Of a DNA stretch of 64,000 nt, positions 7,346 to 54,424 are shown piece after piece. Each line of letters starts with the position of its first letter. The first letter of the stretch is position 1. A program made the position numbers and the translations under genes. The stretch is taken from NCBI RefSeq assembly GCF_003124125.1, contig NZ_QCXQ01000002.1, positions 402,426 to 466,425 of the forward strand, read 5' to 3'. The notes under the pieces are model-generated. The model was given only the letters and a program-made list of their open reading frames with translations. It had not been told where the DNA came from and made no database searches. This stretch comes from Levilactobacillus bambusae (lineage in GTDB: Bacteria; Bacillota; Bacilli; Lactobacillales; Lactobacillaceae).

Positions 7346-7624
7346 TAGGGGTCATTCTTCACGAACTACCGAGTGATTCCACACCCTTTAGTCGGGTTCC
7401 GCTTCTCAACTTCCTGTGGTTAACCAAGTCATCGAATAATGCCTAAACCCAGCATTTCCCGATGACTCAGTTAATCCTCAGAAGTAAGCGAGAAGTTCCA
7501 CACCCTTTAGTCGGGTTCCGTCACTCAGATCCCTCCGGATAAACCAAGAAACAAATTATGCTAAGGCCCAGCATATTTTGTTTCTTATGTTATTCCTCGA
7601 GACCTACCGAGTGATTCCACACCC
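7346..7624 (+). repeat. Tandem structured repeat unit U (partial + U1 + U2)
   Basis: A 3' fragment (7346-7388) is followed by two full units, U1 (7389-7507) and U2 (7508-7624). Each begins TAGTCGGGTTCC and ends TTCCACACCC. Each folds into one long imperfect hairpin: in U1 GCTTCTC/GAGAAGT, CTTCCTGTGG/CCTCAGAAG, GTCATCG/CGATGAC and ATGC/GCAT; in U2 TCACTC/GAGTGA, GAAACAAA/TTTGTTTC and TATGC/GCATA. U2 ends exactly at the dacA stop codon. With 7250-7345 this fills the 408-bp gap. Confidence 0.8.
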
Positions 7625-8875
7625 TTATCCACGAAAAGCTGACTGCTGAGCTAAGCTGGCGTTAATCGGTTGAAAATCACTGTTCCGGTGCCAAATTTCA
7701 TAGCTAATCGGGTAGTATGGCGTGTTCGTGCAGTACTCAACGGTTTCCTTAAGCCCTAAGTTCTTATCCGTAACCTGTTTACGGGCCACTAAGTTGCCGG
7801 TGGGAATCATCCCATTTAGCGGAGTAGTTGCCGTTACCGTCCCGGTTAGATCCTCCAAATTGGTATCATCCGAAATCCATAGGCCAGTGGTCGTGCTAAC
7901 CGAGGGTGCCGATAATAGGCGGTTGGAATCGGGCGTCCGAAGCGCGACCGGCCGGGGGGTGATCTGTTCGTACGTATAGGTTTCCTTGAGGTTCTTCATT
8001 AACTTAATCATCGTGGGAAACGAACTTTTGGCCCCGAGAACCGTTGCAATAATCCGGTGGCCGTCCACCGTATAAGTCGTGGTGTAGCACATTAATGCCT
8101 TAGGTGTATAACCAGTCTTTAAACCGTCCACCTTCAAATCCTCATCGTAGTACGGCTGACCTGGCAATAGTTCGTTAGACGTCATGACTGCCGTTCCGTT
8201 AACCTTTTCGTTCGTCGTTTTAGCCACCTTGAGCACGTCCGGAAATTCATTAATTAAATGTTGCGAGATAATCGTAATGGCACTCGCAGAAACCAGGTTT
8301 TGAGCCTTTTTATCGGTACCCTTCAAGTCGTAGTGGTACTTCGTCAAATCCGTGTTATCTAACCCAGATGAACTGACAAACTTGGCGTCAATGTGCCACC
8401 GTTTGGCCTGTTCATTCATCATTTGGATAAAGCGAGCGTTACTTCCCCCGACTTTGTTTCCGAGGGCAATTGCTGCACTATTGGATGACGCAATTAAGGC
8501 CGCATCAAACAACTGCTTAACGGTAAACTTTTCGTTAGTCTTCATTTCGACTGATCCCGTCTCCGAGTTCTTAGACATTTTCTGTAGCTCTTTATCAATG
8601 GGGACGTTATCCGACCAGTTGAGTTTCCCCGACTGAACGTCACGTTCCACTAAGTAGAGCGTCATTAACTTGGTTAATGACGCAATGGGTACCTCTTGGT
8701 TTTGATTCTGCTGGTAAAGCACCTGGCCGCTTTCAGCATCAATGGCGTACGCCGCCCGGGCCGAAACGTGATCCAGTTGACTACTGGCATTAGCCGTTTG
8801 CTGGGGTAACCATGTACACAACACCGCAATAACCGCTACAATAACTCCCATTTTCCCCCAAAATGTGTTCTTCAA
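7625..8875 (-). CDS. dacA: Serine-type D-Ala-D-Ala carboxypeptidase (PBP5/DacA family)
   Basis: A 416-aa secreted low-molecular-mass penicillin-binding protein that removes the terminal D-Ala from peptidoglycan pentapeptide stems and so limits cross-linking. It has a signal peptide (hydrophobic residues 8-22, cleavage near ANA-SS), the active-site tetrad SLTK (Ser66/Lys69), the SSN motif (SSNSAA, about residue 130) and the KTG box (GLKTGYT, about residue 255), then a PBP5 C-terminal beta domain. I see no clear C-terminal amphipathic anchor. The start is TTG behind AAAGGAG. Its stop codon abuts repeat unit U2 directly. Confidence 0.9.
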   Translation of the reverse strand: MKNTFWGKMGVIVAVIAVLCTWLPQQTANASSQLDHVSARAAYAIDAESGQVLYQQNQNQEVPIASLTKLMTLYLVERDVQSGKLNWSDNVPIDKELQKMSKNSETGSVEMKTNEKFTVKQLFDAALIASSNSAAIALGNKVGGSNARFIQMMNEQAKRWHIDAKFVSSSGLDNTDLTKYHYDLKGTDKKAQNLVSASAITIISQHLINEFPDVLKVAKTTNEKVNGTAVMTSNELLPGQPYYDEDLKVDGLKTGYTPKALMCYTTTYTVDGHRIIATVLGAKSSFPTMIKLMKNLKETYTYEQITPRPVALRTPDSNRLLSAPSVSTTTGLWISDDTNLEDLTGTVTATTPLNGMIPTGNLVARKQVTDKNLGLKETVEYCTNTPYYPISYEIWHRNSDFQPINASLAQQSAFRG

Positions 8876-8967
8876 AATGAATGGGCTCCTTTTTTGTTAA
8901 ATTAACAGCTAAGCTCCGGTTGGTGTCCCCACTCCAATCCGGGCTTAGCTGTCGGCAGATTAGTTAC

Positions 8968-9165
8968 CTAATCAGTTTCAATCGGACTCTCCATTAACAT
9001 CCATAGAATCAAATACACTAAAATTCCAGGAAAAATGACCGTCATTGATAACAACACATAGATAACCCGAGCGATTGTTGCATTCCAACCGTACTGAGCT
9101 GAAATTCCACCAATCACACCAGCAATTACCGCATTGTTTGCACTTCGATGAATTGGAATATGCAT
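8968..9165 (-). CDS. PspC-domain membrane protein
   Basis: A 65-aa single-domain PspC protein: a short basic N-terminus (HIPIHRSANN), the typical AGVIGGISAQYGWNATIARVIYVL motif and a hydrophobic helix (residues 34-57, FPGILVYLILWMLM). PspC-type proteins sit in the membrane and report envelope stress, often with LiaF/LiaR or PspA partners; none is visible here. Behind a GGAGGAG RBS, it is a single gene between dacA and a divergent DedA protein. Confidence 0.88.
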   Translation of the reverse strand: MHIPIHRSANNAVIAGVIGGISAQYGWNATIARVIYVLLSMTVIFPGILVYLILWMLMESPIETD

Positions 9166-9366
9166 GTTAATCTCCTCCGTTTCAATTAATCCATTCAGAA
9201 AAGCTTATTACCATCATTATATAGGGAGATGAAAATTCTGACCAGAAAACCGCCTTCAAAACTTGCTTTAACCTTTCCTTAAGGCAGACCGTTATCAGTT
9301 GAGTTTCCCAGGGGCCCCCTGTAGAATACAGTGTAACAAATTGAACGAGATACGAGGGGAAAAAAC

Positions 9367-9981
9367 ATGGACAACGCACTCATAACCGAATTGATTTCAC
9401 AGTTTGGCTACCTCGGCATTGCCGCGCTAATCGCACTTGAAAACCTCTTTCCACCGATTCCATCCGAACTTATCCTAACCTTTGCCGGCTTTTTAACGCT
9501 TTCCTCCACCCTCACCATTCCGGGAGTCATCCTGGCAGCAACGGTTGGAGCCGTTACCGGGGCCCTAATTTTGTATGGTGCCGGCCGGCTAGTTAAGGCG
9601 GAACGACTTGAACGCTGGTTAGGCAGCCGGATGGGACGCTATCTTCACGTGAGACCCGCCCACATTCAGCGGGCCCAGCGCTACTTTCAAACCCATGGCC
9701 TATTCGCCATCTTCTTTGGCCGGTTCGTTCCAGTCGTTCGAAGCCTGATTTCCATCCCAGCGGGGATGTCCTCTTACTCCCTGGTCCGGTTTATCGGCTT
9801 CACTTTTGCGGGAACCTTGATCTGGAATACCGTGCTAATCTTTGCCGGTCACTTAGCGGGAAATGCTTGGCCGACCATCCTAACCACTATGAAATCCTAC
9901 AGTACCCTCTTGATCATCGCCACTGGGTTCCTCCTCATCAGTTGGGCAAGCTGGGCTGCTTTTAAACGCCGCCGCAGCTAA
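9367..9981 (+). CDS. DedA-family membrane protein
   Basis: A 204-aa DedA/VTT protein. The hallmarks are LIALENLFPPIPSELIL (residues 19-35), with the acidic residues and double Pro of the first re-entrant helix, and FGRFVPVVRSLISIPAGMS (about residues 117-135), with the conserved R and G of the second. Hydrophobic segments follow, to a basic C-terminus KRRRS. The likely role is lipid-carrier flipping and envelope homeostasis. It is closer to the classical DedA/YngC type than the paralogue at 5926-6591. An RBS (ACGAGGGG) lies 8 nt before the ATG. Confidence 0.88.
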   Translation: MDNALITELISQFGYLGIAALIALENLFPPIPSELILTFAGFLTLSSTLTIPGVILAATVGAVTGALILYGAGRLVKAERLERWLGSRMGRYLHVRPAHIQRAQRYFQTHGLFAIFFGRFVPVVRSLISIPAGMSSYSLVRFIGFTFAGTLIWNTVLIFAGHLAGNAWPTILTTMKSYSTLLIIATGFLLISWASWAAFKRRRS

Positions 9982-10055
9982 CAAATTGCTTGCGTATTTG
10001 ACCAATCCTGACTATTATAAGGGTGTTCCAAAAATAAACGAAGGGGGTCATCAAT

Positions 10056-10481
10056 TTGGCTAACGATTTAAGTAACGGTTTTTTCAGTAACTTTGCCCCA
10101 CAAAACTTGTTTGATGAATTTAATCACGCATTTAAGGATCTGGATTCATCGGCCACAATGAAGACCGACATTGTTGATCACGATGATCGGTACGTGGTGA
10201 AGGTCAACATCCCCGGTGCCAAGAAAGACAATATTCACATCGACTACCGGGATGACACCCTTCGGATCTCCGCTTCCTACGACGTTCGGCGTGAGGACAA
10301 GGATGATCAGGGAAACGTACTGCGTTCCGAACGCAACACCAGCAATACATCCCGCAGCTTCTACCTGCCTGATGCTGACAAAGATCAGGCCAAAGCAACG
10401 TTTGAAGATGGCGTTTTGGAACTGACCCTTCCAAAAATCGTCAAGGATACCGATCATGATGATCACATTAGTATCCAATAA
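10056..10481 (+). CDS. hsp20: Small heat-shock protein, Hsp20/alpha-crystallin family
   Basis: A 141-aa ATP-independent holdase. After an asparagine- and phenylalanine-rich N-terminus (about residues 1-30), the alpha-crystallin domain (about 36-130) contains DRYVVKVNIPGAKKDNIHIDY and ends with the conserved A-x-x-x-x-GVLELTLPK motif; the tail ISIQ is the C-terminal IXI-like element. The start is TTG with AAGGGGG 8 nt upstream. A promoter is likely in 9982-10055, but no CIRCE or clear CtsR site is visible. It is followed by repeat hairpin A copy 2. Confidence 0.92.
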   Translation: MANDLSNGFFSNFAPQNLFDEFNHAFKDLDSSATMKTDIVDHDDRYVVKVNIPGAKKDNIHIDYRDDTLRISASYDVRREDKDDQGNVLRSERNTSNTSRSFYLPDADKDQAKATFEDGVLELTLPKIVKDTDHDDHISIQ

Positions 10482-10515
10482 CACTCTCCCACTGAGCAAC
10501 TTCTAATTAAACACG

Positions 10516-10655
10516 GCAAGGACATAAGACGTTCAGGCCATACTAAATAAAACCAGGGACCAGATTCGATTATATTTTGATCGGATTTGGTCCCTGGTTT
10601 TATTTAGTTGTGGTTTTAGTCGGGTTCCACCGTTCTACCGAGCGGTTCCACACCC
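10516..10655 (+). repeat. Hairpin A (copy 2) plus minimal unit U
   Basis: GACGTTCAGGCCATACTAAATA leads into arms AAACCAGGGACCA/TGGTCCCTGGTTT around the core ATTCGATT...GATCGGATT, then TATTTAGTTGTGG. At 10617-10655 follows a 39-nt deletion derivative of unit U: only its two ends are kept (TAGTCGGGTTCCACCG joined to CTACCGAGCGGTTCCACACCC). The glycerate kinase stop codon (10635-10637) lies inside it. The region is between convergent genes. Confidence 0.75.
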
Positions 10656-11792
10656 ATCCATGGCTCTAATTAACCGGGCGACATTCTCAGCGGTCTTTTG
10701 CACGTTTGAACCGGCCTCTGAAATCGCTTGGTCTAAGGTTTCAACGCCGGGGACGGTACTAAAGATTGCGTCAATTCCTAATTCATAGAGTACCTCGGTA
10801 CCCTGACCAATCTTACCAACCAGGGCAATTACGGGTAGGTCACCGGCCGTTTGCTTCACGGCTTGAGCCACCCCCATTGGGGTTTTACCGTACTGGGTCT
10901 GAAAATCCATGCCGCCTTCTCCGGTGAAGACCACGTCCGCATCCTTCACCCGATCACGTAAATGCGTTTTCTCTAATACAATCTCAACCCCACGTTCAAC
11001 GGTCGCGGAGGTAAAGGCTAAGAGTCCGGCCCCTAATCCACCCGCAGCCCCCGAACCAGGAATTTCAGCCACTTCGATCCCTAAATCGCGGGCAACCACC
11101 TCCGCATAGTGGGCTAAGTTGTGGTCTAACCGTTGGACCTGATCTGGGGTGGCGCCCTTTTGCGGGCCGAAAACTACGCTGGCCCCCGTGTTGCCAGTCA
11201 AGGGGTTCGTCACATCAGACGCCATAATGACCTCAACCTTATCCAACCGGGGATCCCTGCGACTCGCATCAATTCGGACTAATTCGGAAAGGTTCCCACC
11301 CCCAACCGCAACCTCGGTTCCATCCGCTTTCAGGAGTTGCACGCCCAAAGCTTGGGCCATTCCCGCTCCCCCATCATTCGTCGCGCTGCCGCCAAGTCCT
11401 AAAATCAGCTGGGTAGCCCCCTGATCCATGGCCGCCCGCATAAGTTCACCGGTTCCGTACGTCGTCGTCACTAGCGGATTTGCCGTTTCATCATCAATAT
11501 ACTGAATGCCGCTGGCGGCGGCCATCTCAATCACGGCGGTGTGCCCGTCCCCTAAAAGACCGTACGTTGCTAACGTGGGATGCCCCAACGGGTTTGTAAC
11601 GGTGGCCGTTAATAACTGGCCATGGGTGGCATCCACCAATGATTGAACCGTTCCTTCGCCCCCATCGGCCATTGGAATCATTTCGATTTCTGCATCCGGG
11701 TACACCGTTTGGATTCCCCGTTTCATTGCAAGTGTGGCCTCTTTGGCGGTTAAACTTCCCTTAAACGAGTCCGGCGCTAATACAAATTTCAT
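10635..11792 (-). CDS. glxK: Glycerate kinase (GlxK/GarK family)
   Basis: A 385-aa type-2 glycerate kinase that phosphorylates D-glycerate to 2- or 3-phosphoglycerate. The N-terminus MKFVLAPDSFKGSLTAKEA is the family signature. Also seen are PMADGGEGT, LGLGGSATNDGGAGMAQALG (catalytic glycine-rich loop, about residues 132-151) and GEGGMDFQTQYGKTP (about residue 295). It lies 15 bp after the GntP permease, so the two form an operon for uptake and phosphorylation. The last residues (GCGTAR) and the stop are encoded by the minimal repeat U, so the repeat has replaced or extended the original C-terminus. Confidence 0.93.
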   Translation of the reverse strand: MKFVLAPDSFKGSLTAKEATLAMKRGIQTVYPDAEIEMIPMADGGEGTVQSLVDATHGQLLTATVTNPLGHPTLATYGLLGDGHTAVIEMAAASGIQYIDDETANPLVTTTYGTGELMRAAMDQGATQLILGLGGSATNDGGAGMAQALGVQLLKADGTEVAVGGGNLSELVRIDASRRDPRLDKVEVIMASDVTNPLTGNTGASVVFGPQKGATPDQVQRLDHNLAHYAEVVARDLGIEVAEIPGSGAAGGLGAGLLAFTSATVERGVEIVLEKTHLRDRVKDADVVFTGEGGMDFQTQYGKTPMGVAQAVKQTAGDLPVIALVGKIGQGTEVLYELGIDAIFSTVPGVETLDQAISEAGSNVQKTAENVARLIRAMDGCGTAR

Positions 11793-11807
11793 GCTAGGCA
11801 GTCCCTC

Positions 11808-13100
11808 CTACTTAAAAATAAACCCAAACATAATGGTCCCAACGATGGTCATGGTCAGTCCCACGGCTGCTTCATACGGAATGGTTGCCATCCGTTGCTT
11901 AAAACTCATATTCATTGCGGCACCGGTAGCATGGAAGTAGTTTCCGTGCGGCAACTCATCAATAACGGTTGCTCCCGTATGAATCATCACAGCTGCCCCA
12001 ATTGGCGCCACCCCAAAGGCCAAGATCGACTTTGAGAATGACCCGGTCGCTAGAATAACCCCCGTTGAAGTTGAAGCCGTTGCCCCAGCCATTAAAATTC
12101 CGGCAATTGGGGCTAAAAAGACTCCTGAAATTCCAGAATGCTGCACCAGTTTAACCACTTCAGCCGGCAACGTCGAAGAGGTAATCAATCCTCCGATTGC
12201 TCCGGCCCCGATTAGAATCAGCACAACATCCGTCATTCGTTCCATCCCTGAGGAAGCGTACGCCATGAGGTCCCGGCCCTTTCCCATCGCTAAGGCGCCA
12301 ATAACCCCGGCCAGTGGCAAAATATACATCGCGTCCACTTGGAACTTCGTTAACAGAGCAATATGAAGTAAACTGCCGATTGGATTAATTAAGAGTAAAA
12401 CAATGGCAACAATGGGAGCCACTAACGCGGACTTTAACGAGGGTAAGTTAGTTAGTTCCGGGGTTTCAATCGCCTCTAAATCCCTCCGACTAGCAATCTC
12501 ACCCCGATGCTTTAACAGGGTCGCTAAAATAACGGTCGCTGCCAGCCCAAAGAGTGCCGGAATAAAATCCGCAATCATCAGCTGACTTAACTCCAGGTTG
12601 AACCCCCGGGCCGCCGCAATGGTATTCGGATTCGGGGAAATAATGTTCCCCGCTTTTCCCCCACCGGATAGAGCAACTAGCAGCGCCACCTTTGACAAGT
12701 GCATCCGTTCCCCAACTTCTAACGCAATCGGCGCTAAAATAATGACGGTTACGGCAATAAAAACACCAACTTGAGTAATAATCATCGCTGAGAGCGCCAG
12801 GGAAAATAGGGCTAACCGTTCCCCTAGCGAATCCACAATTGCCCGGGCAATCGTATTGGCGGCCCCGGATTCCATCATTACCCCGGCTAAAACTCCCGCC
12901 GCTAAGACCCGGACAACCGTACCCATGACACTTTGCGTTCCAGTCACCACAATTTCCACCGTTTGACTTAAGCTAGCGCCCCCGATGAGCGCTCCGATCA
13001 CTGCTCCCAGCATTAAAGCATACACCGGGTTTAACTTATATAAAATCAAAATAATTGCGAGGGCCAAACCGACTAAGGCCCCGATCCAACTAACAGTCAT
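11808..13100 (-). CDS. GntP-family permease, probably for glycerate
   Basis: A 430-aa proton-coupled organic acid symporter of the GntP/DsdX family with about 12 hydrophobic helices. Typical segments are MLGAVIGALIGGASL, SGGGKAGNIISPNPNTIAAA and IAGILMAGATASTSTGVILATG. The gluconate subfamily is possible, but the next gene is glycerate kinase and the divergent gene a CdaR-type regulator, so glycerate is the better guess. The start is ATG 13100 behind AAAGGAGC; an in-frame upstream ATG at 13130 has no RBS. Confidence 0.88.
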   Translation of the reverse strand: MTVSWIGALVGLALAIILILYKLNPVYALMLGAVIGALIGGASLSQTVEIVVTGTQSVMGTVVRVLAAGVLAGVMMESGAANTIARAIVDSLGERLALFSLALSAMIITQVGVFIAVTVIILAPIALEVGERMHLSKVALLVALSGGGKAGNIISPNPNTIAAARGFNLELSQLMIADFIPALFGLAATVILATLLKHRGEIASRRDLEAIETPELTNLPSLKSALVAPIVAIVLLLINPIGSLLHIALLTKFQVDAMYILPLAGVIGALAMGKGRDLMAYASSGMERMTDVVLILIGAGAIGGLITSSTLPAEVVKLVQHSGISGVFLAPIAGILMAGATASTSTGVILATGSFSKSILAFGVAPIGAAVMIHTGATVIDELPHGNYFHATGAAMNMSFKQRMATIPYEAAVGLTMTIVGTIMFGFIFK

Positions 13101-13325
13101 TCCGTAAGCTCCTTTTAGTGAAAAAATCACATATCATATCAAAAACTTATTGCACGATTTATTTTACAGCAAGTTATTAACGATCTGATTTGGTCAATCG
13201 GTGAAAATAATCCGTTGATTCCACCGCTTTCTATCTGTTAAAATGCAGGTAATTCCCAAGGAAACAAGACTAGCGTTGTTGGTCAATTGACTAACGAATC
13301 ATTTGACGAAAGGAAAATTAGGGCT

Positions 13326-14363
13326 ATGAAAATATCGTCCACTCTTGCACAATCAATTGTTGATCACATGATGAAACAGATCCCTTACAATATTAATATG
13401 ATGAATGAAAGCGGCGATATCATTGCCAGTGGCGATGCGGCGCGAATCGGCTGCCACCACGTCGGCGCAGAAATGGCCATCCAGCAGCGGCAAACCTTAG
13501 CGATGGACTATGACTACGGTGATCACGGTCAGCCCGGGGTGAATATGCCCATTTGGTTTGAAGATCAAATTATCGGGGTCATTGGGATTACGGGCCAACC
13601 GCAAACCGTCCAACCCTTCGCCCGGTTATTAGTGACCGCAACCGTTCTTTTACTGCAGCAGCACCAGCAAAACGCTAGGTCAGCGGCGCGGGAATCCCAG
13701 CTCACCCGTTTTATTAGCCAGTGGCTGCAATCTCAAGCGCCCCTCCGGGAGTCATCCCTCGTTATGGCTGCTAGAGAACTGCACGTGGATCTAACCCTTC
13801 CCCGTCAGGTTCTATGCTTGATTGGGCCCAACTCCAATGCCTTTCGGACGGATGCCTTAGACTATTCCCTGCAAACCAACGATCAAATGCGATTGATCAT
13901 CACCAATCAACCGAAGACCCTTAACCGGGCCCTCCAGTTTGCCGAACGATCCCATTGTGAACTTGGGATTGGCACCCCGACCACTTGGTTGCAGCAAAGC
14001 ACCGCTGAAGCTCGACGAACTATTACCCTCCAACGGTTACTCAAGCAGCCCCAGCTCCAAACCTATGAAGAAGCCCGGTTGACGGATGAGCTCCTGCGCC
14101 ACCGGCTAAAACTTCCCAGAATGGCACAGCACTATCGCGATCTGAAGGAAGCCTCTGACGTTGATTTCATGACGACCTTTATGGCCTACTTCCAAAATAA
14201 CGGTCACGCCGGTCAAACAGCCACGCAGCTACATATTCACCGAAATACCCTAACCTATCGTTTTAACCAGGCCAAGGACTTAACCGGACTGGACTTTCGC
14301 CGATTCACAAACTTATTTCAGTTCGCCCTCCTTTGGTTGTACGACCAGGATGAAGCCACGTAA
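13326..14363 (+). CDS. CdaR/SdaR-type sugar diacid regulator
   Basis: A 345-aa activator of the carbohydrate diacid regulator family. The N-terminal diacid-sensing domain (about residues 1-135) starts MKISSTLAQSIVDHMMKQIPYNINMM. A linker follows, then the C-terminal PucR-type helix-turn-helix (about residues 290-340), with GQTATQLHIHRNTLTYRFNQAKDLTGLD. It is divergent from the glycerate permease and kinase genes and probably activates them in response to glycerate or a sugar acid. The start is the ATG after GAAAGGA; an upstream TTG at 13287 would add 13 residues but lacks an RBS. Confidence 0.85.
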   Translation: MKISSTLAQSIVDHMMKQIPYNINMMNESGDIIASGDAARIGCHHVGAEMAIQQRQTLAMDYDYGDHGQPGVNMPIWFEDQIIGVIGITGQPQTVQPFARLLVTATVLLLQQHQQNARSAARESQLTRFISQWLQSQAPLRESSLVMAARELHVDLTLPRQVLCLIGPNSNAFRTDALDYSLQTNDQMRLIITNQPKTLNRALQFAERSHCELGIGTPTTWLQQSTAEARRTITLQRLLKQPQLQTYEEARLTDELLRHRLKLPRMAQHYRDLKEASDVDFMTTFMAYFQNNGHAGQTATQLHIHRNTLTYRFNQAKDLTGLDFRRFTNLFQFALLWLYDQDEAT

Positions 14364-14412
14364 AAAGCACCCGTCAAATTCGTTTAAAACCTGAATTTGA
14401 CGGGTGCGTTTT
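14363..14412. terminator. Bidirectional terminator
   Basis: AAAAGCACCCGTCAAATT pairs with AATTTGACGGGTGCGTTTT, flanked by A and T runs, between the convergent CdaR-type regulator and dus genes. Confidence 0.85.
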
Positions 14413-14444
14413 AATTTGAATCATTAAAAGTCATTCGTTACTTC

Positions 14445-15473: not shown

Positions 15474-15607
15474 GTTAAAAATCTCCTTACATATCGTAAT
15501 CGAATGCTCCCATTTTATCACGATTTTTCGTCGAACGCGCGTTTTCTGCCAAAGTTCCCCTGCAAAACACGGTATAATGGGAGTCAGAAAAGAAGGGAGC
15601 GTTCGTT

Positions 15608-16579: not shown

Positions 16580-16581
16580 CC

Positions 16582-16628: not shown

Positions 16629-16687
16629 TGCTAACCGACTGGTTCCAGATCCCATCTTTATTGAACCCCAAGAGTGAACTCCGTTGG

Positions 16688-42863: not shown

Positions 42864-43601
42864 ATGAAAAAGGAACTGACAGGAATCGCCATCATTGCAC
42901 TAGGTTTGGGGTTAACAGGATGTGGGATGGGTGGCCAAAACGCAGCCGTAAAACTAACCACAACTAAATCAACGGTTACACCCAATGGGGCAGCCGCCAA
43001 AGTAAGCGGGAAGGCCACACCAAAGTCAACCATTCACTATACGTTAAACGGCAAGCAGTCAAAAACGGTTAAGGTCAAAAAATCGGGAACCTATAAGATA
43101 TACGTGACCCCAAAAACCACGGCCCAAACTGTTAAATTAACGGCCAAAATCAACCATAAATCGTCTAAGACTAAAAAGGTAGATATTAAAGCTGCTAAAC
43201 CGTTGACGAAGTACACCACCTTTGCAACGGCTTATAATACGGCAATCAAAAAGGCCAATGGTTCTCAAACGATCGATACCACGGGTAAAATTGGTCGGTA
43301 CCATGTGGGCAGCGACACCCAGCCGATTTCCGTAACCACCACTAAGAACGGTGATTTATTGGGGGTCTCGGATTCTATGAAGGACAAACGCAATCGAACT
43401 TTATATGAGCAACAGGTAACCGCCGCTGGTCAAGCCTTTGGGTTCACGGATAAGGAAGCTAAATCACTGCTAACCCGGTCCGAAAAAACACCTAAAAAGG
43501 CCTACATGGCAACCCATAAAAACATCCGAATGGAAATTAAAACCACGAAAACTAACGGCAACGAAAAAATTGTGACCACCTTCTCGCACCACGGAGCTTA
43601 A
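42864..43601 (+). CDS. Lipoprotein with an Ig-like domain, function unknown
   Basis: A 245-aa lipoprotein: signal peptide with lipobox LTGC (Cys near residue 22), then a Lys/Thr-rich beta domain (about 30-115) with the look of a bacterial Ig-like or Big repeat (TPNGAAAKVSGKATPKSTIHYTLNG), followed by a domain (about 120-245) that I cannot assign. The latter contains YNTAIKKANGSQTIDT and KNIRMEIKTTKTNG. It is highly basic. The start is the ATG behind TAGGGGGA; the 50-codon longer reading is rejected. It is a single gene. Confidence 0.7.
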   Translation: MKKELTGIAIIALGLGLTGCGMGGQNAAVKLTTTKSTVTPNGAAAKVSGKATPKSTIHYTLNGKQSKTVKVKKSGTYKIYVTPKTTAQTVKLTAKINHKSSKTKKVDIKAAKPLTKYTTFATAYNTAIKKANGSQTIDTTGKIGRYHVGSDTQPISVTTTKNGDLLGVSDSMKDKRNRTLYEQQVTAAGQAFGFTDKEAKSLLTRSEKTPKKAYMATHKNIRMEIKTTKTNGNEKIVTTFSHHGA

Positions 43602-43614: not shown

Positions 43615-43958
43615 TTTAAAAACAATAACGGGTTTGAGATACTAGGCCCGCTTCGCTTAAAAAATACGACTCTTGCAGCATAGTCCGAAAGTATCCTTAA
43701 TAGGATGCTTTCGGACTGGTAGTGACGGGAGAGGGTGTGGAACCGCTCGGTAGATCTTGAGGCTTAACGGGGTTCATCGAAAAATGCTGATCTTAGGTAT
43801 TATTCAATGACCTGGTTAAACGCAGAGAGCTGAGCGGTGGAACCCGACTAAAGACAGACCACAACCAAATAAAGCGGGGGACCAAATCCGATCAAAATGC
43901 AATCGAACCTGGTCCCCCGCTTTATTTGGCATGGTCTAAACGTCTTATATCCCAGCCT
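43615..43958 (-). repeat. Composite structured element A + U5 + C (minus orientation)
   Basis: Read on the minus strand: hairpin A (43958-43851; arms AAAGCGGGGGACCA/TGGTCCCCCGCTTT, enclosed by AGACCA/TGGTCT), a full unit U (43850-43731; CCGCTC/GAGCGG, TCATTGA/TCGATGA), then hairpin C (43730-43615; AGTCCGAAAG/CTTTCGGACT). At 62319-62541 the same A and C are joined without U. The element fills the 359-bp gap between the lipoprotein and the PTS gene and ends 2 nt from the PTS stop codon. Confidence 0.8.
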
Positions 43959-45955: not shown

Positions 45956-46039
45956 TATGTGTTCCTCCTAAGTATAGAGTAAGGTAGATTAATCATTCGA
46001 TCCGCTGACGGTGACCAAGCAAACGTCCGTAATAAAATA

Positions 46040-46115: not shown

Positions 46116-46214
46116 TAAAATAGCCTATATGAATTCGCTTACAAAAGCTTGGTTGGTTTTGGGGATACTAACGCCGTATCCCCACTCTAGTCCCATTATC
46201 CACTTGTCACGTCA

Positions 46215-46230
46215 TTGGTAGCGCTATCAA
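46215..46230. promoter_or_regulatory. cre-like palindrome upstream of nagE
   Basis: TTGGTAGCGCTATCAA is nearly palindromic and fits the cre consensus apart from one position. It lies 260 bp upstream of nagE and 83 bp after the TetR gene. The rest of the 357-bp gap 45956-46312 is AT-rich and has no gene. Confidence 0.45.
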
Positions 46231-46312
46231 TCCATGCCCCTATTGTAATATGGGCTAGGCCAATATGTCCACCACTTTTTGTATTTTATTCATAATTTCT
46301 TTGACCTAAACC

Positions 46313-46963: not shown

Positions 46964-47011
46964 TCGCTTGTCGCTCCTTACTTAAATTCCGTTTATTATA
47001 GCATGTTTTAC

Positions 47012-47044
47012 TTTTTGAACAAAATTCGTTTACTTTGTTCAAAA
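47012..47044. promoter_or_regulatory. TetR operator
   Basis: TTTTTGAACAAA (47012-47023) and TTTGTTCAAAA (47034-47044) form an inverted repeat with 11-bp arms separated by 10 bp, between the divergent TetR and reductase genes. Confidence 0.7.
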
Positions 47045-47090
47045 CACGTGTTATTCTGATGCCACAATCAAACGAGGAGGACTGACACAC

Positions 47091-48122: not shown

Positions 48123-48127
48123 AAAAT

Positions 48128-48345
48128 AGGACCGGGACATAGGACGTTCAGGCCATGCAAAATAACGGTGATGACCGGGTTCGATTGTCTTTTTGATCGA
48201 ATTTGGTCATCACCGTTATTTTAGTTGAGGTTTAGCTGTGGTCGGGTGCCACTTCATCCTGCAATTAACTATGGCAGCGAATAATGTCTCACACCCAGTA
48301 TTTCTTAAGCAAAGCAGACCTAATGTCTTATGCCCAATTCTCTTC
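48128..48345 (+). repeat. Hairpin A (copy) plus degraded unit U
   Basis: GGACGTTCAGGCCATGCAAAATA leads to arms AACGGTGATGACC/GGTCATCACCGTT with the core GTTCGATT...GATCGAATT, then TATTTTAGTTG. From 48240 a decayed unit U follows: GTCGGGTGCCACTTCATCCTG, AATAATG and CCCAGTATTT remain, but its 3' end is lost. It lies between convergent reductase and membrane protein genes. Confidence 0.7.
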
Positions 48346-48351
48346 ACCATT

Positions 48352-48648
48352 CTATTTAAAAATAAAAAATTCCATTAATAGAATGATCAGTACGAGCAGC
48401 GTTACCGCTAGCAATATCCCGAAAATGAGGCTTACCCCAATGCTTAACCGATGCCGAACCAGCCAAACACTGATGTAATCTGCTTCATAAGCCGCAAGAA
48501 AGATCAGCAGCCAGGTTGGCCACCGGGACTTGGTTGCGACCGTAATTCCAACGCTAACCACCGTTATTAACCCGGCGATTATGGGCGCCCACTGGTAATG
48601 CCGTGGCGAAAAGGACGTGGCTAGTTGCTGCTTCCAACTTCCGGGCAT
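48352..48648 (-). CDS. Small membrane protein
   Basis: A 98-aa protein with three hydrophobic segments (about 20-37, 44-58 and 68-96) and no family that I recognise. Its ATG overlaps the stop of the ketopantoate reductase-like gene (TAATG), so it is translationally coupled. No RBS of its own is needed. The function is unknown; a link to the reductase is only by position. Confidence 0.6.
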   Translation of the reverse strand: MPGSWKQQLATSFSPRHYQWAPIIAGLITVVSVGITVATKSRWPTWLLIFLAAYEADYISVWLVRHRLSIGVSLIFGILLAVTLLVLIILLMEFFIFK

Positions 48649-49586
48649 TAATGGTTACCCTGAACGAGTTGTTCCATCGCGTGGATTTCCTGGGTGATCA
48701 ATCGGTTTACCATCGTTGGAATATGCCGGGATTCTCCCTGCCGCGCGACGTACCCGTTCAAATAATCAATTTCCGTTGGCCGTTTGCTCAGCATATCCTG
48801 ATGCATGGACGGGTAATGGGTCCCGTTGGCCTCATCCGGTAGCTGGGCGAGAATCAGGTTGCGCGTTTTCGTCACGTCAAATGGAACGTGCATAGCGTCT
48901 GCCACCTGCTGAAACTCAGCCAGAATTTCATCCATCATGGCTGAAAACGTTGTCGTTTTACCGAGGTTGCCGATATTGCAGTTTAATAGCGTGCAAAGTG
49001 GGTTTAAAACGGCATTCAACGCCGCTTTGCGCCAAATCGCTTCAATCGCATCATCGGTCAACGTCACGTTAAGGCCGGCACTGTTCATTACTTCCACGAT
49101 TTGATCAACCTGATTTGCCTTCCCCGTTTCAACCGCCTGCATTTGAACGATTCCTTCACCACCATAACTAATGTATCCGGCGCTATCGAGCCCCGCTGAC
49201 CACGTGGTAACCCCCGCAATGATGTTTTCCTTTGGGACGTATTTTTCAATCGTTTCAACGTTCCCGATCCCATTTGCCAGGGTAAGTACCATGGTGTCGT
49301 CGTGCAGAATGGGTTTAATATCCGTGAGCATGGCATCAAGCTGCATGGCCTTCGTAAACATAATCACTAGGTCAAAATGTTCGCTAGGGTCAACTTGAGC
49401 GGGCTGAACCGCAACGATTTGATCGACGTGTTCCGTCCCCGAGACGTTAACAATCAGTCCACGGGTATTAATCGCTTTAAGGTTCGCTTCCCACCGGTCA
49501 ATTAAAATCACCTCTTGATTATCATGGCTCAACATATCACCAAACCGGCCGCCCATGGCACCGGCACCTGCAATTGCAATCCTCAA
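48648..49586 (-). CDS. 2-dehydropantoate 2-reductase family protein
   Basis: A 312-aa NADPH-dependent ketopantoate reductase (ApbA/PanE) family enzyme. Rossmann motif IAIAGAGAMGGRFGDML (residues 3-19). Catalytic Lys in MFTKAMQL (about 75) and second Lys in EAIWRKAALNAVLNPLCTLL (about 180), Glu near the C-terminal SMHQDMLSKRPTEIDYLNG. It may act in pantothenate synthesis or on other 2-keto acids; no pan genes are near. The start is TTG 8 nt after AAGGAG; two alternative starts (GTG 49595, TTG 49592) lie too close to the RBS. Confidence 0.85.
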   Translation of the reverse strand: MRIAIAGAGAMGGRFGDMLSHDNQEVILIDRWEANLKAINTRGLIVNVSGTEHVDQIVAVQPAQVDPSEHFDLVIMFTKAMQLDAMLTDIKPILHDDTMVLTLANGIGNVETIEKYVPKENIIAGVTTWSAGLDSAGYISYGGEGIVQMQAVETGKANQVDQIVEVMNSAGLNVTLTDDAIEAIWRKAALNAVLNPLCTLLNCNIGNLGKTTTFSAMMDEILAEFQQVADAMHVPFDVTKTRNLILAQLPDEANGTHYPSMHQDMLSKRPTEIDYLNGYVARQGESRHIPTMVNRLITQEIHAMEQLVQGNH

Positions 49587-49628
49587 TTTCAACACTCCTT
49601 TAATCCTGTTTTAACGTTTATATCATGG

Positions 49629-50114
49629 CTATAGCTTCGGAACTTCCATTACTCGAACGGGATGGTCAAGCGCCTGCATCACCATTATGAGACTGGTAAA
49701 GGACAGGACAATCAGTGAGTCTTCACTAATCGGCAGCATGATGTCATCATCCTGGTCCAACAACCGGTCTAAAACCACGTGCACCTGTTGATCCACGTCC
49801 TGTTTAACTCCAAACAGCGTGGCGGGTTTGCCCAACAGATCCTGCTTGACGTCTAAACTTGCGGGTTCAAGGGTGGGAACATCCAAATGACGCCCCAACC
49901 GGTCTAGATTTAACGCCCGGTCACCCGCTGATAATAGCAGGTAAAATTCTGGTGTTCCGTGCACCCGCAACAGTTCAAGGTTGACCAAGGGATGGGTAAA
50001 CAGCGGGTCATCAGCCGATCCATTGGCCAACCAATTCACGTGATCCATTCGATCATACTTCAAATTAATCTCATCTAAAAATTCTAAAATTTCAGACCTT
50101 TCGTTGACTGACAT
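49629..50114 (-). CDS. YbaK/EbsC-type aminoacyl-tRNA deacylase (ProX-like)
   Basis: A 161-aa protein resembling stand-alone prolyl-tRNA editing domains. LKYDRMDHVNWL near the N-terminus, YLLLSAGDRALNLDRLGRHL in the middle and LLGKPATLFGVKQDVDQQVHVVLDRLL near the C-terminus follow the family layout. It would hydrolyse mischarged tRNA such as Ala- or Cys-tRNA(Pro). The start is an ATG behind AAAGGGG; a longer frame without RBS is ignored. It is 42 bp upstream of the reductase gene and may be co-transcribed. Confidence 0.6.
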   Translation of the reverse strand: MSVNERSEILEFLDEINLKYDRMDHVNWLANGSADDPLFTHPLVNLELLRVHGTPEFYLLLSAGDRALNLDRLGRHLDVPTLEPASLDVKQDLLGKPATLFGVKQDVDQQVHVVLDRLLDQDDDIMLPISEDSLIVLSFTSLIMVMQALDHPVRVMEVPKL

Positions 50115-50185
50115 GGGCGGAACCCCTTTCACGTTTTCTTTAAGGTTACCGTACCCTAATTTGAACGTCAATGCGAGTACTTGGC

Positions 50186-50237
50186 TTGACAGTAGCCGCA
50201 CAATGAATTAGGCTACTTGTAACTTTTAAAGTTACAA
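50186..50237 (+). promoter_or_regulatory. Promoter and operator of the Rrf2-NmrA pair
   Basis: -35 TTGACA (50186-50191) and -10 TAGGCT (50209-50214) with a 17-bp spacer. A perfect palindrome follows at 50217-50237: TTGTAACTTT and AAAGTTACAA around one T, at the transcription start. It is the likely binding site of the Rrf2 regulator. Confidence 0.75.
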
Positions 50238-50245
50238 AAAGGGAG

Positions 50246-50689
50246 ATGATGACCATTCGTTCATCTACTAAACTTAGCGATGCCATTCACTTACTCGCCT
50301 ATATCCGCTACTTTAAGGGGGATGATTTATCGAGTGAAGCCATTGCTAAAAGCATCGAAACCTCACCGGTCGTAGTCCGCCGCCTCATGAGCCAGTTAAG
50401 CCATGCCGGCCTGTTAATCACCACCAGGGGGAAAGCCCAACCGGAGCTGACCATTCCAGAAGATCAGCTCACTTTACTGGCCATTCAGCAGGCGGTGGAC
50501 CCCCACCCCATACTAACGGTCGATCGAAAGACGAACCCAAAATGTCCAGTCGGTGGTCACATCCAAACGATTTTAACTGACCACTACCAAGAAGTGGAGG
50601 CGGCCGCTAAGAAACAGATGGCCGCCATTACCTTAGCCGACATTATGACGGACCTACACGAAGCCAATAGAAAGGACGAATTAAAATGA
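50246..50689 (+). CDS. Rrf2-family transcriptional regulator
   Basis: A 147-aa winged-helix Rrf2 protein. The N-terminal part reads KLSDAIHLLAYIRYFKGDDLSSEAIAKSIETSPVVVRRLMSQLSHAGLLIT, with the conserved recognition helix. Only one Cys is left (NPKCPVGG, about residue 92), so it is not the three-Cys Fe-S type but could sense thiol or quinone stress, as YwnA/HypR-like members do. Its stop overlaps the next ATG (ATGA), so it is coupled to the NmrA gene. Two adjacent ATGs are possible starts behind AAAGGGAG. Confidence 0.87.
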   Translation: MMTIRSSTKLSDAIHLLAYIRYFKGDDLSSEAIAKSIETSPVVVRRLMSQLSHAGLLITTRGKAQPELTIPEDQLTLLAIQQAVDPHPILTVDRKTNPKCPVGGHIQTILTDHYQEVEAAAKKQMAAITLADIMTDLHEANRKDELK

Positions 50690-51546
50690 CAATAACAGTT
50701 ACGGGTGCAACCGGACAGTTAGGAACTAAAGTCGTCCATGCCTTAACCAAACTGGTCGGTCCCACCAATTTAAAGCTGGCCGTGCATACCCCCAAAAAGG
50801 CCGAGTCCTTTAGCAAGCAGGGAATGACGGTCGTTTCCGCAGATTATGCCAATTATCAATCACTCGTCACGGCCTTTACCGGTACCGACGTATTGGTCTA
50901 CATCCCTAGCATTACCTACAACGTTTTACAGCGAATCACTGAATTCGAAACGAGTCTAGCTGCGATGAAACAGGCACAGGTGAAAAACTTGGTCTTCGTC
51001 AGTTTCTTTGCGGACCAAGAGTCAAACCCCTTTCAAATGTCAAGCTACTACGCCTACGTCCCCCGGCGACTGGCGGGCACACCCCTTAACTTTGCGATTT
51101 TAAAGAACAGTTTGTATGCCGATCCTTTAGTCCCCTACCTCCCAGAACTCATTGAACGCGAAGGATTAATCTATCCCGTCCAAGATCAAGCCCTATCCTT
51201 TATTACCCGAAACGATAGCGCTGAAGCAATTGCGAAAGTTGCGGTAACACCAGCCTTGCGTAGTAGCGGGCAGCGCTACCTGCTTTCCCAGGGTGAAAAC
51301 TTTACGATGCCTGAATTAGGGGCCTTGATGTCCACGGTTACCGGTCATCACATCGGCTACCATGAAATGACCCTCTCTGAATTTGCCGCAGCTTATGCGG
51401 ATGAGGGTGACGGTGACGAGCTTGCGTCGATGTACCACGCGGGCGCATTAGGGCTCTTAAACGGAATTAGCGACGATTTTGCCATGATTACGGGGCATCA
51501 GCCCGAAACCATGAGCCACTTCTTAACCCAAAATTGGCAAAATTAA
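50686..51546 (+). CDS. NmrA-family NAD(P)H-binding protein (QOR2-like)
   Basis: A 286-aa atypical SDR with the cofactor motif VTGATGQLGTKVV (residues 4-16) and no YxxxK catalytic pair in the usual place. It resembles quinone oxidoreductase 2 (QorB) and NmrA-like redox sensors; segments LVFVSFFADQES and ILKNSLYADPLVPYLP are typical. With its Rrf2 partner it probably responds to electrophile or quinone stress. It is coupled to the regulator by a 4-bp overlap. Confidence 0.85.
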   Translation: MTITVTGATGQLGTKVVHALTKLVGPTNLKLAVHTPKKAESFSKQGMTVVSADYANYQSLVTAFTGTDVLVYIPSITYNVLQRITEFETSLAAMKQAQVKNLVFVSFFADQESNPFQMSSYYAYVPRRLAGTPLNFAILKNSLYADPLVPYLPELIEREGLIYPVQDQALSFITRNDSAEAIAKVAVTPALRSSGQRYLLSQGENFTMPELGALMSTVTGHHIGYHEMTLSEFAAAYADEGDGDELASMYHAGALGLLNGISDDFAMITGHQPETMSHFLTQNWQN

Positions 51547-51627
51547 GCTTGCCCCAGCGCCAGCTAGAGGGACTATAATATCAACATGAACTTACAACTA
51601 TCGAGCTAAAAGAGAAGGTCTGATAAA

Positions 51628-52575
51628 TTGATTTCCTTTGAACACGTCACAAAACAGTACCCCGAACACCTCGCCCTCGACGACCTCAATCTCACCATTC
51701 ACACGGGTGAGCTTTTTGTCCTAGTTGGCCCCAGCGGCAGTGGGAAAACCACCACCCTTAAAATGATTAACCGGTTGATTGACCCTACCTCCGGCACCGT
51801 TAAGATTGGGGATCAAAACGTTACCGACTATAACATTCAGGCGCTGCGGCTGACCATGGGGTACGTTCTTCAAAACATCGCCCTGTTCCCTAACATGACC
51901 ATTCAAGATAACATTGCGATTCAACCCGAAGCGCTCCGGTGGCCCAGAGCCAAACGAATTGAGCGGTCCCGACAGTTACTAACCCAGGTTCACTTAAGTC
52001 CGGATGACTATGCCAACCGGTATCCCCGGGAGCTATCCGGTGGCGAACAGCAGCGGGTTGGGATCGTTCGGGCTCTAGCAACGGAGCCGAAGATCATCTT
52101 AATGGATGAACCCTTTAGCGCCCTAGATCCGATTTCGCGAAAACAATTGCAGGACCTCGTACTTCAGCTCCATCAATCCCTAAACCTCACCATTGTATTT
52201 GTGACCCATGATATGCGGGAAGCCCTCCGCTTAGGGACCCGGGTGGCTGTCATGCGGAACGGCCACATCCAGCAGGTCGGAACCCCAAACGATATTCGCC
52301 AGCACCCCGCAAACGACTTCATTAAGGAATTCTTCATTTCCGCCGAGGATCAGCAGCAAACCCTAACGGTCGATGAGCTCCTTCTCAGTGGTTACGATCG
52401 CCCCGTGGAACCGGACAAACACTACATGCGAATTCCTAAGTCAGCGAGCCTTAATAATCTGGCCCAAACATTAAAGAGTCAGCCCAACGGGGTTATCGTT
52501 ACCCGGAGTGACGGACAAGATATGGTCATTACGACCCAGGATCTCCTGAGTTACATTTCAGAAAGGGGGGTCTAA
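51628..52575 (+). CDS. ABC importer ATPase, OpuCA/EgtV type
   Basis: A 315-aa ATPase of the betaine/choline (OpuA/OpuC/ProV) class. Walker A GPSGSGKTT (residues 34-42), Q-loop VLQNIALFPNMT, signature LSGGEQQRVGIVRAL, Walker B IILMDEPFSALD, H-loop VTHDM. A C-terminal extension (about 240-315) is a single incomplete CBS-like module. The start is TTG behind GAGAAGG. It lies 3 bp before the permease-binding fusion gene, so the two form a complete importer. The substrate may be glycine betaine, carnitine or ergothioneine. Confidence 0.9.
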   Translation: MISFEHVTKQYPEHLALDDLNLTIHTGELFVLVGPSGSGKTTTLKMINRLIDPTSGTVKIGDQNVTDYNIQALRLTMGYVLQNIALFPNMTIQDNIAIQPEALRWPRAKRIERSRQLLTQVHLSPDDYANRYPRELSGGEQQRVGIVRALATEPKIILMDEPFSALDPISRKQLQDLVLQLHQSLNLTIVFVTHDMREALRLGTRVAVMRNGHIQQVGTPNDIRQHPANDFIKEFFISAEDQQQTLTVDELLLSGYDRPVEPDKHYMRIPKSASLNNLAQTLKSQPNGVIVTRSDGQDMVITTQDLLSYISERGV

Positions 52576-52578
52576 CCC

Positions 52579-54102
52579 ATGTGGCAAAACCTTTGGCACA
52601 CCATGGTGACCCAGCGGGGCCAAATTTGGGAGGCCCTCTTGCAGCACATTGGCTTATCCCTGTTATCCTTGCTCATTGCAGCCGCAATTGCCATTCCCCT
52701 CGCCATCATCCTAACCCCCCACAAAAAAATTGCGGAGGGCGTTCTCCAAATCACCAGCGTCATGCAAACCATTCCGTCCCTCGCACTCCTCGGAATTTTA
52801 ATTCCCTTCGTGGGGATTGGGACCGTACCTTCCGTTATCGCCCTCGTGGTGTACGCCGTCATGCCCATCTTTCAGAGCACTTACTCCGGGCTTTCAGAAA
52901 TTGACCCGTCACTGCAAGAAGCCGCGACGGCGTTCGGACTCCCACGGTGGATGCGGCTGTTTCGGATTGACCTTCCCCTAGCTATGCCGACCATCATTGG
53001 CGGCTTACGGGTCGCCCTCGTCCTGATTATCGGAACGGCAACCCTTGCGGCCCTCATCGGAGCTGGCGGATTAGGGACCTATATTCTACTGGGGATTGAA
53101 ACCAATAATAATTCATACTTAATCATCGGTGCGGTCCTGTCCGCCTTACTTGCCATTTTCTTCTCCGCACTCATTCGGTGGCTCGGCAGATTATCCTTGC
53201 GGCGAATGGTCGAAGTGGTTGCCATTGCCGTGGCCCTCATTGCTGGGGCCGCCGGTTACCAATCCTACACCGCCAAGACAGCCACCATTACCATTGCAGG
53301 TAAACTAGGCAGCGAGCCGGATATTCTCATTAATATGTATAAGGAACTAATTGAACAGCAGGATCACAAGTTACAGGTGGTGACTAAACCGAACTTCGGT
53401 GCCACCTCGTTTCTCTTTAAGGCCCTCCAGTCCAACCAAATTCAGGTCTACCCAGAATTTACGGGAACGGTGACCCAAACCATTTTAAAGAGTCACACGA
53501 AAACCTCCCATAACCCGCAGCAAACGTACGAAAAGGCCCGGGCCGGATTGAGCTCCGAATATCAAATGTCCTACCTAAAACCGATGAAGTACCAAAACGG
53601 GTACGATCTGGCGGTAACCCAACAATTCGCCAAGAAGTACGACCTCAAAACCATCTCTGACTTGCGTGAAATTGCGACCAAGCTGCACGCAGGCTTTGAC
53701 CCCGACTTTGACCACCAAAAAGACGGGTACCCCGGATTACAGAAGGCTTATAACCTGCAGATGGGTTCCATTCGAACGATGGAGCCAAGCATTCGGTACA
53801 AAGCACTGGTTAACGGTAAGGTCAACGTGGTCGATGGTTACACAACGGATGCTGAAATTCAGCAGTATCACCTGGTGGTTCTAAAAGACGATCTCCATTA
53901 TTTCCCACCGTATCAGGGAGCCCCACTGTTAAAAACCTCTACACTTAAAAAGTACCCGGCTTTAAAACCGGCCTTAAACAAACTGGCCAATCAGATTACC
54001 GAGAAGGACATGCAAACCATGAACTATGACGTTCAAGTCAAGCACGAAAAGGCGTCAACGGTGGCGCACCATTACCTTCTCACCCACCACTTACTCAAGT
54101 AA
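52579..54102 (+). CDS. ABC importer permease-substrate-binding fusion (OpuC/EgtU type)
   Basis: A 507-aa two-domain protein. The permease part (about 1-215) has five or six helices and the EAA loop EAATAFGLPRWMRLFRIDLPLAMPTIIGG. The substrate-binding domain (about 228-507) starts ITIAGKLGSEPDILINMYKELIE, with FGATSFLFKALQSNQIQVYPEFTGTVTQ. This TM-binding-domain fusion with a single ATPase is the layout of EgtUV ergothioneine importers and of some OpuC/BusA-type betaine transporters. The ligand cannot be decided by eye. It is followed at once by repeat A and two U units. Confidence 0.88.
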   Translation: MWQNLWHTMVTQRGQIWEALLQHIGLSLLSLLIAAAIAIPLAIILTPHKKIAEGVLQITSVMQTIPSLALLGILIPFVGIGTVPSVIALVVYAVMPIFQSTYSGLSEIDPSLQEAATAFGLPRWMRLFRIDLPLAMPTIIGGLRVALVLIIGTATLAALIGAGGLGTYILLGIETNNNSYLIIGAVLSALLAIFFSALIRWLGRLSLRRMVEVVAIAVALIAGAAGYQSYTAKTATITIAGKLGSEPDILINMYKELIEQQDHKLQVVTKPNFGATSFLFKALQSNQIQVYPEFTGTVTQTILKSHTKTSHNPQQTYEKARAGLSSEYQMSYLKPMKYQNGYDLAVTQQFAKKYDLKTISDLREIATKLHAGFDPDFDHQKDGYPGLQKAYNLQMGSIRTMEPSIRYKALVNGKVNVVDGYTTDAEIQQYHLVVLKDDLHYFPPYQGAPLLKTSTLKKYPALKPALNKLANQITEKDMQTMNYDVQVKHEKASTVAHHYLLTHHLLK

Positions 54103-54104
54103 AG

Positions 54105-54424
54105 GGTAAGAATATAAGACGTTCAGACATGCCAAATAAGGCGGCTGACCAGGTTAATCGAACTTGGTCAGCCGCCTTATTTAGTCGGGTTCCACTTCTC
54201 AACTTCCTGCGGTTAACCAAGCACACAAATAATACTAAAGCCCAGTATTTTTTTGTGTGCACCGTTAATCCTCAGAAGTAAGCGAGAAGTTCCACACCCT
54301 TTTTAGTTGGGTTCCACTACTCAGATCCCTCCGGATAACCCAGGCAATGAATAATGCCCAAAACCAGCATTTTTCACTGCCTCAGTTATTCCTCGAGATC
54401 TACCCGAGTGACTCCACACCCTTT
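54105..54424 (+). repeat. Composite structured element A + U3 + U4
   Basis: Hairpin A (54105-54181, arms AATAAGGCGGCTGACCA/TGGTCAGCCGCCTTATT with a shortened core GGTTAATCGAACT) is followed by U3 (54182-54303) and U4 (54304-54424). U3 is most like U1 and U4 most like U2, so the A-U-U dimer at 7250-7624 and this one share their order. Stems co-vary: U3 CTTCTC/GAGAAG and GCACACAAA/TTTGTGTGC; U4 ACTC/GAGT and GCAATGAA/TTCACTGC. It fills the 324-bp gap between convergent genes and ends 2 nt from the next stop codon. Confidence 0.8.

Follow-up and report, generated by a model that had tools for sequence, protein, structure and literature searches.

A dispersed hairpin repeat of Bacilli, unit U, that lies beside stop codons at gene 3' ends in Levilactobacillus bambusae and its relatives

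We describe a structured repeat of about 119 nt, here called unit U, found in a 64,000-nt stretch of the Levilactobacillus bambusae genome (contig NZ_QCXQ01000002.1, positions 402,426 to 466,425; the window). U is a real dispersed repeat family of Bacilli, thin outside its own family, Lactobacillaceae, and it is placed at the 3' ends of genes in a fixed orientation. At its 3' end the unit runs into the stop codon of a gene encoded on the other strand, and any mRNA would thus carry its reverse complement, revU. The reading we favour, to which we give about an even chance, is that U is an interspersed hairpin repeat of Bacilli, similar to the repetitive extragenic palindromic (REP), enterobacterial repetitive intergenic consensus (ERIC) and BOX elements, which acts as a hairpin in the 3' untranslated region (UTR) beside the stop codon. 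Its structure, covariation, position, orientation and dispersal are observed, as is its patchy presence at the one gene compared between genomes; we infer that U is transcribed and that it affects the mRNA.

The window contains five full copies of U, as had been proposed from the letters of this stretch alone (the sequence-only reading): copies 1, 2, 4 and 5 on the plus strand at 7389..7506, 7508..7625, 54182..54300 and 54304..54422, and copy 3 on the minus strand at 43732..43850. Covariance model (CM) R1, built from 44 units (alignment A1), scores copies 1 to 5 at 131.6, 117.8, 120.1, 128.0 and 117.2 bits, respectively. Each is predicted to form one long imperfect hairpin, again as proposed, with fold z scores of -6.9, -5.8, -4.2, -7.2 and -5.7 in the same order and none of 200 shuffles as good. 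Partial copies accompany them on the plus strand. A 3' fragment in tandem with copy 1 (7342..7387) is present, though weak (R1 19.2 bits, E 0.0029). The decayed copy claimed near 48240 is indeed a remnant of the 5' part of U (48241..48306; nhmmer, 23.1 bits), with no fold signal left (z +0.8, no better than shuffles). One further locus, absent from the earlier list, is a mini-copy at 10617..10656 (R1 30.8 bits) in which both ends are kept and the inner hairpin is deleted.

Further copies occur elsewhere in the genome. A blast search with the pair at 54182-54421 gave 43 places in L. bambusae, and R1 gave at least 71 matches at E <= 0.1 among the 150 of 909 first-look candidates that were scored; once the two weakest matches and one self-match on the opposite strand are set aside, the remaining 68 group into 40 sites. 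All 71 matches are located on 4 of the 39 contigs (C10, C21, C35 and C37), and the other ~0.86 Mb of the genome yielded no U among the same scored candidates. The covariance model search in other species, which the sequence-only reading had suggested, found matches across the genus, family, order and class: R1 in 32 of 36 Levilactobacillus genomes, and R2, a model of 35 Levilactobacillus units, in 159 of 301 genomes sampled from the family (covering 24 of 40 genera), 55 of 295 from the order (25 of 74 genera) and 6 of 299 from the class (5 of 119 genera). These three samples overlap one another, and the R2 counts are lower bounds because 12 candidates per genome were scored under strict filters. 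Five chosen genomes carry 81, 35, 56, 16 and 81 matches. A short-pattern scan found at least 120 stretches, and the 80 that were listed, most of them from Levilactobacillus, also name Lactiplantibacillus, Lapidilactobacillus, Lacticaseibacillus, Paucilactobacillus and uncultured or unplaced Lactobacillus. The dispersal of U is evident from this copy number and from its patchy presence at dacA, described below.

No match to the U pattern was found in viral contigs, nor in phage records with one blastn query; of five blastn queries against plasmids, one gave matches below E 1e-3, to three Pediococcus damnosus plasmids. This suggests that U is rare outside chromosomes, bearing in mind that blastn misses diverged copies and that there is no expected number to compare. 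On the P. damnosus brewery plasmids the copy (L320:3001-3121) sits where an ABC-transporter ATPase gene ends, near an ISLpl1 (IS30-like) transposase. None of 4227 Rfam families matches the window at its gathering score, and a known RNA family for 54100-54430 was rejected, as its nine sub-threshold matches all fall far below gathering score. Searches of the open-licence literature listed no description of the family.

The compensatory stems reported from the window gain very strong pairing support in wider alignments. Among the 34 predicted pairs, 23 change on both sides in A1 and 27 in A3 (35 rows). With the structure held fixed, 97.2% of A3 cells are paired and the covariation score is 0.786, compared with 0.191 for shuffled alignments and no more than 0.115 with the partners slid; the score is somewhat flattered, because the structure was derived from the same alignment. 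In the 74 best rows of a further alignment, A4, 95.4% of cells are Watson-Crick. The internal loops and the apical motif of U are conserved, and mismatched loop motifs are kept across genera while the stems vary: of the 35 A3 rows, for example, 23 keep the TCC/TCC loop, 5 have it paired and 7 show some other change. In two sets of tandem neighbours (L142:1501-1863 and L103:1501-1747) the apical hairpin is swapped for another long perfect hairpin, and in L142 the outer parts of the neighbours are almost identical.

The position of U relative to genes, which the sequence-only reading did not mention, is already visible in the window. The minus-strand open reading frame (ORF) 7625-8875, DacA-like by eye without a family search, has a stop codon that shares one base with the 3' end of copy 2 (stop at +1); ORF 54427-54774, on the same strand, has its stop codon 4 nt from copy 5 (stop at -4); and minus-strand ORF 10635-11792, glycerate-kinase-like by the same kind of inspection, terminates within the mini-copy (ORF end +22). 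For a general count, one ORF caller was applied to both ends of each unit, taking the longest ORF of at least 90 aa with a stop codon -10..+30 nt from revU. A stop codon is found in this interval at 18 of the 40 L. bambusae sites and at none of 40 mirror ends. In named relatives, whose loci were collected by a short motif, the figures are 31 of 81 units and 0 of 81; this set consists of 104 matches in 80 listed loci, minus 8 on the opposite strand, 2 partial or neighbouring in L195, 1 duplicate and 12 near locus edges, with tandem units counted singly, and 8 of 93 distinct motif-locus units overlap with A4.

Looser counts place a stop codon near revU at 24 of the 40 L. bambusae sites (32 examined, the other eight taken as misses) and, mostly for best-scoring sites and in the interval -10..+45, at 40 of 78 sites of other genomes. 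Eleven L. bambusae sites in the looser count lie 0-10 nt past a stop codon, a zone which in the same orientation makes up 3.3% of the intergenic points in the window. Some ORFs terminate within revU, at +2, +22/23 or +29/30. In the RefSeq annotation of one P. damnosus plasmid, the end of the coding sequence (CDS) coincides with the end of the U match (query 1-117 of 119); in a second plasmid with the same protein, the match ends at query base 104 and the CDS starts 15 nt on. The gaps that hold U are convergent in 24 cases, tandem in 14 and divergent in 1 (39 classified L. bambusae sites), compared with 5, 7 and 3, respectively, among window gaps of at least 200 nt. U does not have the form of an intrinsic terminator, a GC hairpin with a U tract directly behind it: no T run directly follows revU in the 21 + 31 flanks inspected.

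The strand that would be transcribed was also assessed from wobble pairs. In the 74 best A4 rows, G.U pairs would form in 49 cells on revU, 15 of them contributed by a single pair, versus 8 on U; the cells depend on one another. One-sided changes, scored between nearest neighbours, likewise favour revU, by 45:21 in A1, 16:5 in A3 and 27:7 in A4. Taken as a whole, revU is the favoured transcript strand, not beyond doubt. Such a bias bears on a different view, raised in the sequence-only reading as a nucleoid-protein target, in which U acts at the DNA level: a nucleoid or topology protein would bind it at gene ends as a cruciform or hairpin, as the bacterial interspersed mosaic elements (BIMEs) of Escherichia coli bind gyrase. 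Convergent gaps are common (24/39), G.U pairs are rare, and the sites listed for one complete genome stay out of the far half of its contig, all of which would suit a chromosome element. We nevertheless regard it as unlikely: the fixed orientation to the stop codon of one gene and the revU wobble bias in part of the data together point to a transcript, and three of the five genomes tallied show a weak orientation of U relative to replication. Replication-strand bias was rejected as an organising rule on the same tallies, which cover the listed matches of the five genomes (54 of 81, 30 of 35, 35 of 56, 28 of 81 and 11 of 16) and are suggestive in the other two. In G753:C1 (2.5 Mb), the 11 tallied of 16 matches are all on the plus strand at 0.73-1.10 Mb, with a further match (L151) near 0.19 Mb; in G183:C1 (2.0 Mb), the 54 listed of 81 matches avoid the middle of the contig.

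Several observations weigh against a role as a 3'-UTR hairpin. In other genomes revU lies 3-18 nt after a terminator at 15 of 78 sites, and 18 of the 81 units of relatives follow a terminator (14 of 81 at the mirror end); copies in such places would be transcribed by read-through alone. Another 23 of the 81 fall in no class. The terminator finders used are crude, and one of them (16 of 31 sites positive) overlooked visible hairpins of the type called V below. The wobble data are also divided: A1 shows the opposite bias (42 on revU, 69 on U, of which 40 at one pair), all A4 rows, with opposite-strand matches included, give 82 versus 69, G.U on revU amounts to 2% compared with 6% in tRNAs (a baseline of 9 distinct tRNAs), and the revU bias could stem from transcription-linked cytosine damage. 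No common carrier function emerged from 32 L. bambusae proteins inspected by eye, without a family search. The regulatory RNA proposed by the sequence-only reading would fit only in the form of a 3'-UTR element, with the strand reversed from that reading, and without a function shared by the neighbouring genes as judged by eye. Finally, a CM match is present at only 6 of 30 loci of dacA orthologues, that of L. bambusae included, and one of the six lies 490 nt past the stop codon. Comparison of filled and empty loci revealed no clean border among the 11 of 30 inspected; a decayed remnant of U is visible by eye at one dacA locus (L317).

U could instead be a selfish or passive repeat resembling a miniature inverted-repeat transposable element (MITE), which would be spread by some enzyme, survive mainly where it is harmless, at gene 3' ends, have no host function and keep its pairing mostly through template switching. 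This is a strong rival, which we consider possible though doubtful. Its patchiness at dacA, its miscellaneous carrier genes, the ORFs that terminate within revU as though U had landed in a gene tail, the alike composites at several L. bambusae sites and the probable scars of template switching (see below) all accord with it. Neutral landing alone does not explain the fixed sense orientation at 31/81 versus 0/81 and 18/40 versus 0/40 ends; the mismatched loops conserved across genera despite changing stems also count against this rival. As for the MITE-like nature suggested earlier, dispersal and patchy presence agree with it, but no transposase partner was found, the Y1 type being the one searched for. 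With regard to terminal inverted repeats and a target-site duplication, the end stem of U belongs to a full-length hairpin, and the dacA loci gave no clean filled/empty pair.

The mode of change in the stems was examined through double Watson-Crick changes between nearest neighbours. Transitions and transversions number 14:15 in A1, 24:23 in A3 and 77:77 in A4 (ratios 0.93, 1.04 and 1.00), versus 78:30, 53:28 and 149:131 at unpaired sites (2.60, 1.89 and 1.14). The contrast between the two classes of site is significant in A1 alone (p 0.025, compared with 0.13 in A3 and 0.55 in A4); these statistics ignore shared ancestry, and the double-change counts vary slightly with tie-breaking. The excess of transitions expected from G.U intermediates is thus not seen among the doubles of any of the three alignments. 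This result, together with the rarity of G.U, weakens the case for a plain structured regulatory RNA, trans-acting or riboswitch-like, that is shaped by ordinary compensatory evolution under selection on RNA alone. The very strong covariation and the conserved internal loops and apical motif are what such an RNA would show, yet transversions are as frequent as transitions (77/154 paired changes in A4), the carriers seem unrelated, tens of copies occur in many genomes and there is no Rfam family, and we hold this explanation to be very improbable.

Individual copies of U carry probable scars fitting template switching, which the sequence-only reading also did not mention. The unit at C10:467295-467460 has a perfect 26-bp arm, compared with at most 10 in the 44 A1 units, and an apex directly repeated over 34 nt, as expected if synthesis had doubled back on the nascent arm before resuming its course. 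Other genomes have perfect arms as long as 20, which among those listed are mostly ordinary long apical stems, so that length alone is no proof. The unit at C10:582850-582967 contains the apex of C10:729305 in inverted form over 34 nt, and in the apex of L126:1384-1499 17 bp of the unit's own 3' arm plus flank reappear inverted. Template switching between inverted repeats is known to homogenise arms and to invert spacers (PMC8604942), and it has been proposed as the origin and upkeep of RNA stems (PMC8794818). U resembles the hairpins maintained in this way in its multi-base compensatory changes, its homogenised arms and its inverted spacers (PMC8794818, PMC8604942), and differs from them in being a dispersed bacterial repeat, the cases described there being RNA genes and coding inverted repeats of yeast. 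Since transversions are as common as transitions and probable scars are found in two copies, the compensation may largely arise during DNA synthesis and not solely through selection on RNA. We tentatively extend this to a self-mending hairpin, a possibility rather than an expectation, in which the DNA hairpin of U itself would be the chief template at replication, covariation would arise without selection on RNA, and selection would guard only the mismatched loops, read by a 3'-end factor beside the terminating ribosome.

Comparison with known systems places U near several families of bacterial repeats. ERIC elements of enterobacteria are about 120-130 bp long and occur in many copies; by description, U is likewise a long imperfect palindrome of ~120 bp, intergenic and multicopy, and we know of no account of ERIC copies whose arms diverge in a compensatory way, though no search for one was made. 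The BOX elements of pneumococcus are built in modules, with parts that repeat between two conserved ends, and by description they resemble the arrays of Levilactobacillus. In that genus many full copies of U terminate an array in which a linker and the 5' arm of U are repeated together n times, followed by one 3' arm, as read by eye at 11 loci (L064-L080), and the lone 5' arms retain the conserved motifs without a partner arm. In the attC sites of integrons the R boxes lie at the hairpin foot, cassettes lie between sites and the integrase IntI is present. The TTAAC/GTTAA boxes of U sit mid-hairpin, and tandem units abut in the L. bambusae genome. REPs go with REP-associated tyrosine (RAYT) transposases, measure 20-40 bp and bear GTAG or CGTC tags; U is ~119 nt long, covering 118-119 positions in its covariance models, no such tag was noticed, and its L. 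bambusae genome lacks a detectable Y1 transposase. The two resemble each other as palindromic intergenic repeats found 3' of genes, chiefly where the gap is convergent or tandem (PMC3733652), U having 1 divergent gap of 39. REPs of the GTAG and CGTC families often provide the flanking ORF with its TAG stop codon (PMC3733652). Efa-1/EFAR of Enterococcus faecalis, from the same order, is also intergenic, structured and multicopy, with 163 bp and 65 copies, and is set apart, by description, by its two adjacent stem-loops (PMC2267715). The bcr1-bcr18 repeats of the Bacillus cereus group are, by description, interspersed intergenic repeats in Bacilli as well; 40-51% of their copies are found in transcripts, and bcr1 is specific to that group according to a title cited in the same paper (PMC3446304).

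The habitat of U, that of small palindromic repeats at gene 3' ends, would suit a REP-like target of a Y1 (RAYT) transposase (PMC3733652). A search for PF01797 gave no candidate in the L. bambusae genome (99.7% complete), other transposases not being searched for, and no match in five U-bearing members of the genus (G019, G021, G022, G027 and G034). This explanation is largely refuted for the searched genomes and appears to us extremely improbable, allowing that a distant Y1 protein could escape the model.

Two further modules accompany U. Hairpin V, with AAATA..TATTT arms of variable sequence and a tail often like GGCATGGYCTRAACGTCTTAT, adjoins the far side of many U arrays. It has the look of a terminator that works in both directions, and its own arms compensate as well. 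In the window it is found beside the U array at 7271..7333 (28-nt arms, 93% complementary), beside copy 3 at 43865..43929 (28-nt arms, 89%), beside the decayed U at 48159..48222 (27-nt arms, 89%) and beside copy 4 at 54134..54182 (22-nt arms, 95%); V-type tails also occur at 10524-10549 and 62504-62529. Module M consists of a hairpin, TCCGAAAGCATCC..GGATGCTTTCGGA, plus AGTAGTTACGGGAT. Its copy in the window is a small plus-strand hairpin at 43682..43717, with 16-nt inverted-repeat arms, that separates revU from the stop codon at 43601; similar sequence comes before revU at seven other L. bambusae sites. In the looser count M precedes revU at the seven sites with a stop codon 115-159 nt off, as well as at C10:6580. 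A frequent order in the L. bambusae genome is a stop codon, sometimes M, one to three revU and hairpin V.

Read on the sense strand, revU starts directly at the stop codon of many seemingly unrelated genes, closely follows it, or closely follows the terminator. If U acts as a 3'-UTR hairpin, as we favour, transcription of the carrier gene would let revU fold within the 3' UTR as a hairpin of ~119 nt with its foot at the terminating ribosome. There we expect it to shield the 3' end of the mRNA and to tune termination or upstream translation, and it may slow the terminating ribosome. There is precedent in E. coli, where REP elements are said to protect mRNA 3' ends and to tune termination or upstream translation; REPs also offer a precedent for ribosome stalling close to a stop codon. 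The arms would stay complementary partly, to a share we can only infer, through a DNA hairpin at replication with one arm copied into the other, and the conserved mismatched loops would be kept by selection. If this is correct, U represents a new Bacilli-wide family of 3'-end repeats without an Rfam model, present in food bacteria, and a test case for the question of how the stems of a hairpin can diverge and still pair. As a rule, covariation is read as strong evidence of RNA function; U may show that DNA template switching can yield much of it and, should the hairpin prove to be self-mending, it would offer a clean natural system for separating template-switch from selected covariation.

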